Source of the DNA: Notolepis coatsorum
Taxonomy: Eukaryota; Chordata; Actinopteri; Aulopiformes; Paralepididae
Assembly (NCBI GenBank): GCA_963971535.1
Contig: OZ020594.1
Span: forward strand, 116,781,127 to 116,845,126
Length of the DNA stretch: 64,000 bases
Direction of reading: 5' to 3'
The notes under the pieces are model-generated. The model was not told the origin of the DNA. It searched no databases and worked only from the letters and a program-made list of their open reading frames with translations. The position numbers and the translations under genes were made by a program. This document shows, in pieces, positions 31,740-60,348 of the stretch (position 1 is its first letter; every line of letters begins with the position of its first letter).

Positions 31740-31918
31740 TGTTTCCTCCACTGTCTTTTAAGGCTTCTCTCCTGTATGAATGTGCTGGTGTGTCTTTAAG
31801 TGTCCAGACTGACTGAAGCTCTTCTCACACTGGTCAGTTATAGGGCTTCTCTCCTGTATGAATACACTGGTGAATATTTAAGTCTCCACTTTGACTGAAG
31901 CTCTTCTCAGACTGGTCA
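31740..31918 (-). pseudogene. Two decayed C2H2 fingers beyond the stop of the zinc-finger exon
   Basis: Downstream of the stop at 31916 the minus strand still encodes recognisable finger sequence ([14 protein letters not shown] and [15 protein letters not shown]) separated by TGEKP-type linkers. A 2-bp loss relative to the repeat unit just before the stop throws these two fingers out of frame. One of them also has a Cys-to-Ser change and a second 2-bp loss. They mark a recent shortening of the array from 16 to 14 fingers. Confidence 0.75.
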
Positions 31919-33157
31919 CAGTAGTACGGCTTCTCCTCTATGAATGCGCTGGTGTTTCTTTAAGTGGTCATTTGTACTGAAGCTCTTCTCACACTGGTCA
32001 CAGTAGTAAGGCTTCTCTCCTGTATGAATGCGCTGGTGTGTCTTTAAGTTTCCAGAGATACTGAAGCTCTTCTCACACTGGTCACAGTTATAGGGCTTCT
32101 CTCCAGTATGAATGCGCTGGTGTGTCTTTAACTGTCCAGAGGTACGGAAGCTCTTCTCACACTGGTCACAGTTATAGGGCTTCTCTCCTGTATGAATACG
32201 CTGGTGTTCCTTTAAGTCTCTAGAGGTAATGAAGCTCTTCTCACACTGGTCACAGTTATAAGGCTTCTCTCCTGTATGAATACGCTGGTGTATCTTTAAG
32301 TGTCCATTTCGACAGAAGCTCTTCTCACACTGGTCACAGTGGTAAGGCTTCTCTCCTGTATGAATGCACTGGTGACTCTTTAAATCTCCAGAGTTACTGA
32401 AGCTCTTCTCACACTGGTCACAGTTATAAGGCTTCTCTCCTGTATGAATACGCTGGTGTTCCTTTAAGTTTCCATTTCGACTGAAGCTCTTTTCACACTG
32501 GTCACAGTGGTAAGGCTTCTCTCCTGTATGAATGCGCTGGTGACTCTTTAAATCTCCAGAGTTACTGAAGCTCTTCTCACACTGGTCACAGTTATAGGGC
32601 TTCTCTCCAGTATGAATGCGCTGGTGTGTCTTTAAGTTTCCAGAGGTACGGAAGCTCTTCTCACACTGGTCACAGTTATAGGGCTTCTCTCCAGAATGAA
32701 TACGCTGGTGTTCCTTTAAGTCTCTAGAGGTAATGAAGCTCTTCTCACACTGGTCACAGTTATAAGGCTTCTCTCCTGTATGAATATGCTGGTGTCTCTT
32801 TAAGTGTCCATTTCGACTGAAGCTCTTCTCACACTGGTCACAGTTATAGGGCTTCTCTCCTTTATGAATGCGCTGGTGAATCTTTAAGTCTCCAGAGTTA
32901 CTGAAGCGTGTTCCACATTGGTCACAGTGGTAAGGCTTCTCTCCTGTATGAATGCGCTGGTGTCTCTTTAAGACTCCATATCTACTGAAGCTCTTCTCAC
33001 ACTGGTCACAGTTATAAGACTTCTCTCCTGTATGAATACGCTGGTGTATTATAAAAGTGGACTTATTGATGAAGCTCTTTCCACACTCGTCACAGCAGTG
33101 AGGCCTTGACTCGTTCATATCTCTGCTTGTTGTTGGGGAGCAATGCAGCAATTGTAC
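31916..33157 (-). CDS. Terminal exon of a C2H2 zinc-finger protein, 14 fingers
   Basis: Probable last exon of a host nuclear DNA-binding protein. It encodes 14 tandem C2H2 fingers joined by HTGEKPY linkers. Most share CDQCEKSF and differ mainly at the helix positions that contact DNA (SRYGVL, SNSGDL, SRNGHL, TSRDL, RTSGNL, ISGNL, TNDHL). An acceptor (TCTCTTCTCCAG) precedes GTACAATTG at 33157, so the ATG at 33181 lies in the intron and is not used; the exon opens in phase 0. The last intended fingers are lost (see 31740-31918). Minus-strand AATAAA near 31380 may be the polyA signal. In its phase and strand it can follow the exon at 48151-49226. Confidence 0.9.
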
Positions 33158-33299
33158 CTGGAGAAGAGAGAAGTACACCAATGAAAAGTTCAGATCTTGT
33201 GTGTGTTTTGCATTAGTTCAGTTTGTATTTCTCAAGTTCTAAAAAACGTTTTATCCTCCAAATTTAGTTGTTGTGATTTAAACATGAATCTGCTCCAAG

Positions 33300-33925
33300 G
33301 GCAGTTATTGAAAACTGGCCAACATTAATAAAATACGGAGATAAAACCCAACAGGCAGTTGCCTACAATATGACATTGTGGTTGTATCTGTCCTTGTAAC
33401 AATATCATTGTTGTTTACGAGTATAGTTTTGGAGATTTCTATTAATTCCAGAGAAATCCGCGATAATAGCTCTTTAGTGGAATACACAAAACACGTTGTA
33501 ATTTTTCGGCTGATTTATGAATCATTTTCAAATAAACGCTAGATTATCGATAGTATGTGTGTCCTTATGCACGCTAGAGAAGCGAGCAAAAAAATCGATT
33601 ATCCATGACTTGGTCAGCGCTAACGTCACGCACACACACACGTTCCGATGGTGGAGAAAAAAACATCTGATTAACCCAATACTGGTAAAATAGAGTCCTT
33701 ACCTCACATCAGATGTTCTGCAAAAAGTTTAATCCAATTCCTGATCGCCATTCCAAATATTGATCGCGTTTATTGATCCAACGTTATAGTCCAAAACACA
33801 TAATCGACCCTGCTCCCAGCCTCGCCAGTGAATGTGGTAACACGATACTGCTTGCCCGAGAAGGGAAACACCCGGACCGGATTTTTTTTTCTGATGCACA
33901 GTCCCATCCAATCCAATGATGGGTC
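33300..33925 (-). mobile_element. piggyBac-family fragment
   Basis: 33485-33925 matches 58262-58690 (for example AAACGCTAGATTATCGATAG, CTGATCGCCATTCCAAATAT). It joins directly to truncated L1 sequence at about 33926, so both elements are incomplete at a shared breakpoint. Confidence 0.6.
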
Positions 33926-58915: not shown

Positions 58916-59957
58916 AATCAATTGTGTGTTACCTGGAGGAAGTGCTTAGATATGCAGACTTGGCAGCAGAAACTGAACAGTGAGGATGTAAAACTAGGGT
59001 TTGTCGGGTGGAAGTATGATGCAGATGATTTACAGCACGATCAACTTCATCATTATTGGGATTATTATATATTATTATTATTATATTATTATTGGGGATT
59101 TGTGGGCAGAGCTTGCAAAAAGCGGTAAATGAGATGTCAGTGGATTTGTTTGAGGAGAAATAATGTCAGCTGGGGGCCAACGTAAACAAAGGGTAAGAGT
59201 ATTCCTTTTCTTCTCTGTTGTTGCTGTTTCATGTGTAATATTGTAGGAATTGTATTTTTTTTTTATTATTATCTTTTTCGCCCTCCTTCTTTTTCCGATT
59301 TTTTTTTCCATCCCACTGTTAGTCGTTATGCCAATTCCCAACCCCCTTCCTGGTTGTTGCGCACTCCCCCCTACTGTTGGTCCGAGAGGCCGGAGACTGT
59401 CACATGCTTTCCTCCGACGCATGTGCAGCCAGCCAGCAGCCAGCCTGGCAGCTCAGATTCTCACTGGAAGAGTGTAACGTGTGGAAGGTCGCACTACCTC
59501 TCTCCAGATCCTACCCTCACTGAGCAGGCGCCCCGACCGAACTGTAGGGGTCGCTGTCCACAACGCCCAGGACCCACCCACGGCTCCCCTCCCCCTAACT
59601 CAGCCAAACGAGTTAGTATAGCGATCAGCCCGAGCCAAGGCAATGCTGACTCTCCGGGAGGAATTGTATTTTTGACATAGAATAACAGGGAGGTTCGGCG
59701 TGTGAATATCATGGAAAAGTGGGAGCTGGCATGGAGGGGGTGGTTCTGGGACGCTGGAACTAACCGCTGAGCCCGAGGTTGTGGGCCTAACTTGAAGAAA
59801 CACCAGTGAAGGGGGTGCCCACTTGATAACCCTGGTGATATGCTGACTCTTGCTGCCCATCTATCTGCATGCTGGGTTGTGATGGCCATTGGGTTTCTTC
59901 ATTGAGTGTTTATCCTTATCGTTAGGGCACAAGTATCTTGTGTTTTATTATAATATA
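58916..59957. other. No gene recognised
   Basis: An AT-rich part (59040-59300) is followed by a GC-richer block (59310-59660) that looks like an interspersed repeat, with TCCGAGAGGCCGGAGACTGT inside, but I could not identify it. Confidence 0.3.
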
Positions 59958-60239
59958 AATAATGTTTAGAGATTAAAGTCAACATTTATAAAGTCAGAAT
60001 AAAGTCAGAATGTTTAGAGATTAAAGTCAACATTTATAAAGTCAGAATAAAGTCATGATGTTTAGAGATTAAAGTCAATATTTATAAAATCAGACTAAAG
60101 TCATAATGTTTACAGATTAAAGTCAACATTTATAAAGTCATGTTTACAGAATAAAGTAAACATTTATAAAGTCATAATGTTTACAGATTAAAGTCAACAC
60201 TTATAAAGTCATAATGTTTACAGATTAAAGTCAACATTT
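59958..60239. repeat. Tandem repeat of about 37-48 bp beside the exon at 60246
   Basis: Repeated AAAGTCAACATTTATAAAGT with CATAATGTTTACAGATT variants, about 6-7 units. It ends within 10 bp of the candidate splice donor. Confidence 0.85.
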
Positions 60240-60245
60240 CCATAC

Positions 60246-60348
60246 TTGTTTCCATGCAGTCCACACAGCTCTTCTCCTGGTCCATCTGTGACAGTTCTCT
60301 CAAACCAAGGTGGGAGAGGCTAGGAAGGGTGGTCATATTCAGACCAAT
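60246..60348 (-). CDS. Probable upstream exon of the THAP/C2H2 zinc-finger gene
   Basis: A 103-bp minus-strand exon candidate. A pyrimidine-rich acceptor (TTTCCTTACTTTCCCCCAAG) precedes ATTGGTCTGAATATG, and a donor A|GTATGG follows (60245). The reading is IGLNMTTLPSLSHLGLRELS then QMDQEKSCVDCMET, a short segment of the sort found just upstream of acidic-repeat exons in fish zinc-finger proteins. It ends in phase 1 and the exon at 49226 starts in phase 1, giving an in-frame N at the junction. The internal ATG could be the start codon, or earlier exons lie outside. Supported by splice signals and phase only. Confidence 0.55.

Follow-up and report, generated by a model that had tools for sequence, protein, structure and literature searches.

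A 64,000-nucleotide (nt) window from the fish Notolepis coatsorum (contig OZ020594.1 of assembly GCA_963971535.1, positions 116,781,127 to 116,845,126) holds three minus-strand exon candidates that had been predicted to form one gene, encoding acidic repeats, a THAP domain, and an array of 14 C2H2 zinc fingers. Our analysis indicates, with a probability of about 0.8, that this gene is a member of a recently amplified fish C2H2 family in which a captured THAP exon, together with its splice donor, joins an acidic exon to a finger exon in one gene. This reading is drawn from the sequence, in which the exon pieces, their recurrent order, the size of the family, the homology of the THAP exon, its donor, and the following intron to a transposable element (TE) of the same genome, and the variability of the DNA-contacting finger residues can all be observed. 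The membership of the locus in a family with at least 60 copies of the THAP exon had not been noticed in the original prediction.

Gene model and recurrence of the exon order

The splice sites and phases of the three exons were checked in the sequence, and both they and the coordinates are as predicted. When joined, the exons form a single open frame of 2421 nt. The features of the locus are as follows, with a slash marking the splice boundary:

60246 to 60348, minus strand: exon 1 candidate (103 nt; CCCCCAAG acceptor; AACAA/GTATGG donor; ends in phase 1)
48151 to 49226, minus strand: exon 2, acidic repeats and THAP (1076 nt; CTGCAG/AC acceptor; GAATCA/GTAAGT donor; phase 1 in, phase 0 out)
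48421 to 49224, minus strand: acidic region of three degenerate repeats (...DPE.LQIKEE...LEEAD...PVK.EH...), from self-matches
48178 to 48411, minus strand: THAP domain with C2CH zinc ligands, P/W/F, and AVPS box, from Pfam and alignments
48149 to 48150, minus strand: GT of the exon 2 splice donor, aligned with the donor-like site of the transposon
47248 to 47356, minus strand: relic of the first intron of the transposon, within intron 2 (86% identity over 63 nt, E = 3e-15; 83% over 60 nt, E = 6e-11)
31916 to 33157, minus strand: exon 3, linker and 14 C2H2 fingers (1242 nt; TTCTCCAG acceptor; stop codon TGA at 31918 to 31916)
31776 to 31938, minus strand: two decayed finger remnants past the stop, in a different frame from the array, from the sequence and a tblastn search with a finger query

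Exon 1 contains an in-frame ATG at 60336, from which it translates as MTTLPSLSHLGLRELSQMDQEKSCVDCMET; the product computed from the joined frame, starting at this ATG, has 802 residues. A profile search of the three-exon product gave no Pfam match for exon 1. It may be the first coding exon, but because an acceptor-like site precedes it, the transcript probably starts in an exon farther upstream. The two introns measure approximately 11 kb (intron 1) and 15 kb (intron 2), and both contain transposon sequence.

The predicted domain content was recovered in exons 2 and 3. The THAP domain (PF05485) was identified by Pfam at residues 272 to 349 of exon 2, with a score of 45 bits (cut-off, 23.9; E = 1.9e-11) and a match to profile positions 1 to 86 of 87. 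Its signature, CAVPGC...FPND...KQWAKF...CTAHF...AVPS, presents the C2CH ligands, the P/W/F residues, and the AVP box, which are the features given for this domain in the accessible part of PMC6004289. A sequence search of the PDB returned weak THAP matches alone, with a best E value of 0.011. In exon 3, Pfam retrieved 14 zf-C2H2 stretches, the same number as a pattern search, and these are arranged in tandem with TGEKP-type linkers. A frameshift follows finger 14 and the frame closes at 31916. This frameshift and the two decayed remnants, which extend down to 31776, suggest that the array was probably once longer than 14 fingers.

Relatives of each exon were sought in the 3.42-Gb assembly that contains the window. 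These searches score the best candidates only, and all copy numbers are lower bounds. Exon 2 has relatives in at least 136 rows, of which 60 reach the last residue of the exon, with a match ending at residue 358 (the THAP list), and 53 cover the acidic region only or slightly more (the non-THAP list). Excluded from both lists were C7:99946809 (residues 1 to 331, with two stops), C32:10339381 (an acidic piece from an exon already represented by its THAP piece), and 21 short fragments. Finger-exon positions were taken from a DNA search (40 rows) and from a search with the first 38 residues of the exon (150 rows).

A finger exon lies within 40 kb of 36 of the 60 listed THAP exons, and in all 36 cases it is found downstream and on the same strand, at a distance of 3.8 to 26.8 kb. 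When the strands of the finger exons were randomized, the highest count was 28 and the observed 36 was matched in none of 2000 trials; circular shifts of the finger exons along the contigs tested gave at most 4, versus 27 observed on those contigs. Of the 40 rows of the DNA search, taken by themselves, 19 are within 40 kb of a THAP exon, and each of the 19 follows the order seen in the window. Of the 40 listed rows for exon 1, nine have a THAP exon within 40 kb, in each case with exon 1 upstream and on the same strand, and the order relative to a finger exon within 60 kb was also correct in nine of nine. The non-THAP list behaves differently, with a finger exon within 40 kb of only 5 of 53 rows and on the same strand and downstream in 2 of those 5; both of these rows (C1:71139977 and C7:101887381; query residues 1 to 293, one stop each) extend into the THAP domain. 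That exon 1, which has no Pfam match and ends in A, could be a chance splice candidate was considered and rejected, given its presence in at least 40 rows of the genome, its correct order in all nine rows with a THAP exon within 40 kb, and the frames that its copies keep (see below).

The fetched copies used to assess splice sites and frames were the top-scoring ones, a choice biased toward intact copies. All 30 THAP exons (window included) are free of stops, have a length divisible by 3, and end at a GTAAG donor. The CAG/AC acceptor is at the expected place in 28 of them (in L024, one codon before the match) and is not evident in L033 and L038. Each of the 30 aligned THAP sequences keeps the C2CH ligands, and the tryptophan of the domain is replaced by arginine in 3 of the 30 family copies (L023, L031, and L037). 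The CCAG/GTACAATTG acceptor and the linker are kept in each of 20 fetched finger exons, in which the number of intact fingers ranges from 1 to 15. Since the same order and strand recur at dozens of loci, the three exons look like one gene, and this order appears to have outlived much rearrangement, because the lengths of the introns vary widely between loci. Together with the conserved splice sites and the open frames, the recurrence strongly supports the prediction that the acidic repeats, the THAP domain, and the C2H2 array form a single gene.

Transposon origin of the THAP exon

The original prediction had mentioned that THAP is a domain shared with transposases. Here this proves to be literal, as a DNA transposon of the same genome contains counterparts of both the THAP exon and its donor. 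The point of entry is preserved in three paralogs from the 53 rows of the non-THAP list, which share 96% DNA identity with the window over the last 163 to 182 nt of the acidic region, as far as codon 268 or 269. Past this sharp breakpoint, the three paralogs continue in the same exon into C2H2 fingers of another type, whereas the window continues into THAP. Beyond the family, many of the closest THAP sequences among the matches listed are dispersed and sit in a 108-residue frame. As these relatives are near-identical copies of an element, an origin of the exon from an ordinary host THAP gene was rejected.

The element copy that we read (L092, at C8:118905528) has a THAP domain scoring 51 bits in Pfam, and its THAP exon shares 77% DNA identity with that of the window over 252 nt. 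The phase-0 donors of the two align with each other, with CGAATCC/GTAAGTACA in L092 and CGAATCA/GTAAGTACA in the window. Past the donor, 29 of 30 family copies (window included; the exception is L026) show homology to the intron of the element within 1.5 kb, versus 1 of 30 upstream control flanks. In the window, this relic has been displaced to 47248 to 47356 by inserted sequence.

The THAP exon of the element is identical over its full length in 17 of 150 listed rows, on many contigs, and a later element exon, which encodes 87 residues with no Pfam family, is identical in 29 of 150 listed rows; both counts include L092. The spacing of the two exons was obtained by comparing 51 THAP rows chosen by hand with 46 of the 150 listed rows of the later exon. 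In 24 of the 51 THAP rows, the later exon lies 1.17 to 1.24 kb downstream, and in 43 of them it lies within 40 kb downstream, a number that is descriptive only and includes the two possible fusion loci considered below. The dispersed, full-length identical copies and the fixed spacing of the later exon make the element look mobile and recently active. It is called a transposon on account of these dispersed identical copies and not of a match to a transposase domain, and it is reminiscent of Kolobok, a tentative assignment. Since the THAP domains of the family and of the element share 58 to 65% protein identity, among the matches listed, the donor would be a relative of the element that was read, and not that element family. 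By these homologies, the THAP part of the gene is derived from a DNA transposon, which supplied both the exon and the splice donor.

In the mechanism that we propose, the acidic exon of an ancestral family gene was fused to the 5' end of a DNA transposon that carried THAP. The captured piece would comprise the THAP exon, its phase-0 donor, and part of the following intron. The THAP frame would continue the acidic frame, and the transposon donor would be spliced to the separate finger-array exon, producing a protein in which an acidic region and a fixed THAP module are predicted to accompany a finger array that changes fast.

Two loci may be fusions of acidic region, THAP, and transposase, or else capture intermediates. 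At C35:10780035-10792522, an open reading frame (ORF; C35:10792262) with 91% identity to the later element exon lies 11.2 kb downstream of an acidic-THAP exon and shares its strand. At C24:20509890-20513626, a THAP domain in a 332-residue frame is followed by a similar ORF (C24:20513366; 92% identical) 3.2 kb downstream, also on the same strand. The THAP domain at the C35 locus is 76% identical to that of the window versus 59% to that of the element, a poor fit with the 91% of its later exon. Elsewhere, at C1:261782466-261794583, a different THAP exon (60 bits; 332-residue frame) precedes a same-strand finger exon (C1:261794227) by 11.5 kb, and this pair possibly represents a second lineage of THAP zinc-finger genes. 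At C6:8.37-9.19 Mb, acidic exons of the THAP and non-THAP types alternate in a cluster, mostly on opposite strands.

Finger variability, possible role, and alternative explanations

The fingers of the family differ mainly where they would touch DNA. In 185 fingers from 20 loci, the entropy at contact positions −1, 2, 3, and 6 is 2.62 bits versus 0.46 bits for the scaffold, or a scaffold mean of 0.64 bits without the four ligand positions, which the search pattern itself holds constant. Exon 2 of the paralog closest to the window shows 9 differences over 1074 nt, and its exon 3 shows 3 over the initial 150 nt, yet this paralog has 10 fingers versus 14 in the window, with other contact residues. 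The contact positions are also among the most variable in zinc-finger (ZNF) proteins of several animals, which the accessible part of PMC10547256 reads as adaptation to TEs. For KRAB-like fish ZNFs, the accessible part of PMC11603059 describes coimmunoprecipitation consistent with TRIM33 binding.

Because the contact residues vary like those of TE-targeting ZNFs, a repressor reading, already put forward as a natural guess in the original prediction, suggests itself, and by analogy it is plausible that the family protein represses transposons. Both modules would bind DNA, with the fingers aiming the repressor at repeats, the THAP domain acting as a second, fixed DNA anchor or as a dimerizing module, and the acidic region serving to bind partners. 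A more specific and rather speculative variant is that the family began as a self-targeting repressor, in which the captured THAP domain still recognizes the ends of the donor transposon lineage and could silence the parent element. Other repeats would have become targets later, as the family was amplified and its fingers turned over, and the C35 and C24 loci described above would represent capture intermediates or additional captures.

The finger array had been described as KRAB-like, and this is appropriate for its style, but a KRAB-like exon was not found with it. Three approximate KRAB-like queries gave no first exon in the window (best E, 0.41) and nothing significant when the next 20 kb upstream was included, and a KRAB-like exon within the window was rejected on this basis. 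One of the queries matched at least 150 places in the genome. Most of the 150 listed KRAB-like first exons cluster apart from the THAP family, at C13:90-94 Mb, C7:18-20 and 69-72 Mb, C1:247-249 Mb, and C45:53-55 Mb; one listed row, C29:118063657, is approximately 1.2 Mb from the window.

Several observations weigh against a functional gene family built on a captured exon, and they bear on three other explanations. It is improbable that the exons belong to separate neighbors, namely, a THAP-acidic gene and a plain C2H2 gene whose phases are compatible by chance. The length of the introns and their transposon content would suit such neighbors, as would the 114 of 150 listed finger-exon matches with no listed THAP exon within 40 kb, but all 36 THAP-finger neighbors within that distance share order and strand, the THAP exon closes with a conserved donor, and the intron between the two is merely 2.8 and 3.8 kb at two loci. 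Conversely, for 24 of the 60 THAP exons no finger exon is listed within that distance, 31 of the 40 listed rows for exon 1 have no listed THAP exon within the same distance, and the 37th neighbor, which appears when the limit is set at 60 kb, is a finger exon upstream of its THAP exon. Partners of these unpaired exons may have been missed, since the searches score the best candidates only, and other upstream exons or other genes may also make use of the finger exon. The paralogous loci may perhaps have been copied whole, in which case the 36 are not independent events. In addition, intron 2 shares a further 118 and 60 nt with an element copy in inverted orientation; this is presumably a common repeat, and therefore a match to the element need not in itself reflect the capture.

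It is doubtful, although less improbable than a pair of neighbors, that most copies, including that of the window, are nonfunctional remnants, decaying as by-products of ZNF cluster turnover, and that the fusion has no role. The pairwise ratios of nonsynonymous to synonymous substitution are 0.59 (THAP) and 0.75 (acidic part), which means some constraint, not strong; the array of the window has lost its last fingers to the frameshift; 4 of the 20 fetched finger exons stop after one finger; and 6 of 24 aligned copies of exon 1 are out of frame. Against decay, the fetched THAP exons are all open, with the bias toward intact copies noted above, and all keep their zinc ligands, and 16 of the 20 finger exons retain 6 to 15 fingers. 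Exon 1 keeps an open frame and a phase-1 end in 18 of the 24 copies (window included), and the length differences among these open copies are multiples of 3. In 11 copies of equal length, 79 singleton changes produced no stops versus 3.7 expected (P = 0.023), a modest depletion; these copies are also top-scoring ones.

Least probable is that host exons were acquired by a mobile element and that the acidic-THAP unit is thus spreading in the manner of a transposon and not as a host gene family. Copies of this unit on many contigs and the ORFs 91 to 92% identical to the element exon downstream of the THAP exons at C35:10780824 and C24:20509890 would be expected of it. However, the near-identical dispersed copies have a THAP frame of about 108 residues, too short for the acidic region, the bases before the THAP domain in the one copy compared (L092) do not match the last ~80 nt of the acidic region, and the acidic copies are largely found in local clusters, like ZNF genes. 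A host C2H2 family carrying a captured THAP exon accordingly remains the preferred reading.

The rest of the window is rich in mobile sequence. At 19898-27302, on the minus strand, is a long terminal repeat (LTR) element of the BEL/Pao type, with matches to Pao peptidase, reverse transcriptase, and DUF5641 distributed over two neighboring ORFs that a stop separates; direct repeats that are 99% identical and ~6.6 kb apart look like its LTRs. A second ORF, judged by eye to resemble the start of the first ORF of this element, is located within intron 2 (39844-41607, minus strand). A long open frame of a long interspersed nuclear element, with 1264 residues and matches to endonuclease and reverse transcriptase, spans 9077-12871 on the plus strand. 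A repetitive ORF in intron 1 (55325-55639; RQTICAPLRFLNTEQ...) is apparently a minisatellite.

Comparison with known systems

Host-transposase fusion genes are said to have been described by Cosby et al. in 2021 as products of transposase capture. The family resembles them in having a transposon-derived DNA-binding exon in frame with host exons and a splice site from the transposon, the use of this donor being predicted. It differs in that only the THAP exon with its donor side was taken, that the fusion point falls within the acidic exon of a ZNF gene, and that dozens of copies exist. SCAN is a gag-derived TE domain that was taken into C2H2 genes and multiplied with them; SCAN zinc-finger genes are reportedly the subject of a 2011 paper by Emerson and Thomas whose title names Gypsy. 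As with SCAN, a TE domain entered C2H2 genes and was then amplified, but here it is a DNA-binding THAP domain from a DNA transposon.

According to the accessible parts of PMC10547256 and PMC11603059, FiNZ and KRAB-like fish ZNFs share with this family a large C2H2 expansion and variable contact residues. FiNZ itself is described in the accessible part of PMC10547256 as a domain of 28 residues, rich in glutamic acid and unique to cyprinids. In contrast with both groups, FiNZ being compared by its description, the present family has a THAP module, and no KRAB-like exon was found nearby. The domesticated Kolobok transposases of Xenopus, for which a suppressor role through binding of transposon targets is suggested in the accessible part of PMC6004289, likewise hold a THAP domain kept by the host, with C2CH, P/W/F, and AVP box. 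The hallmarks of Kolobok are THAP, H2CH, and DDE motifs. Unlike those transposase genes, the N. coatsorum family has kept THAP alone, fused to fingers, and its donor element is not shown to be Kolobok.

A literature search, whose reach mostly left out subscription papers, found no report of a fish family combining THAP and C2H2 domains, although one may still exist, and the accessible parts of PMC10027918 and PMC12062965 contain no THAP-C2H2 fusion. TE domains in host genes and ZNF expansions are both kinds already known.

Capture of domains from transposons and expansion of ZNFs against transposons are usually studied apart, and here they meet in one family. Its distinctive point is that the capture, the donor site, the intron relic, the uncaptured paralogs, the recently mobile relative of the donor, and the large amplification are all legible in one genome. 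The family opens the question of whether the captured THAP domain still binds its parent element and whether the capture aided the spread of the genes. If the captured piece is joined to the finger array as it appears to be, the family would be a clear case of a genome making new gene regulators from a transposon.

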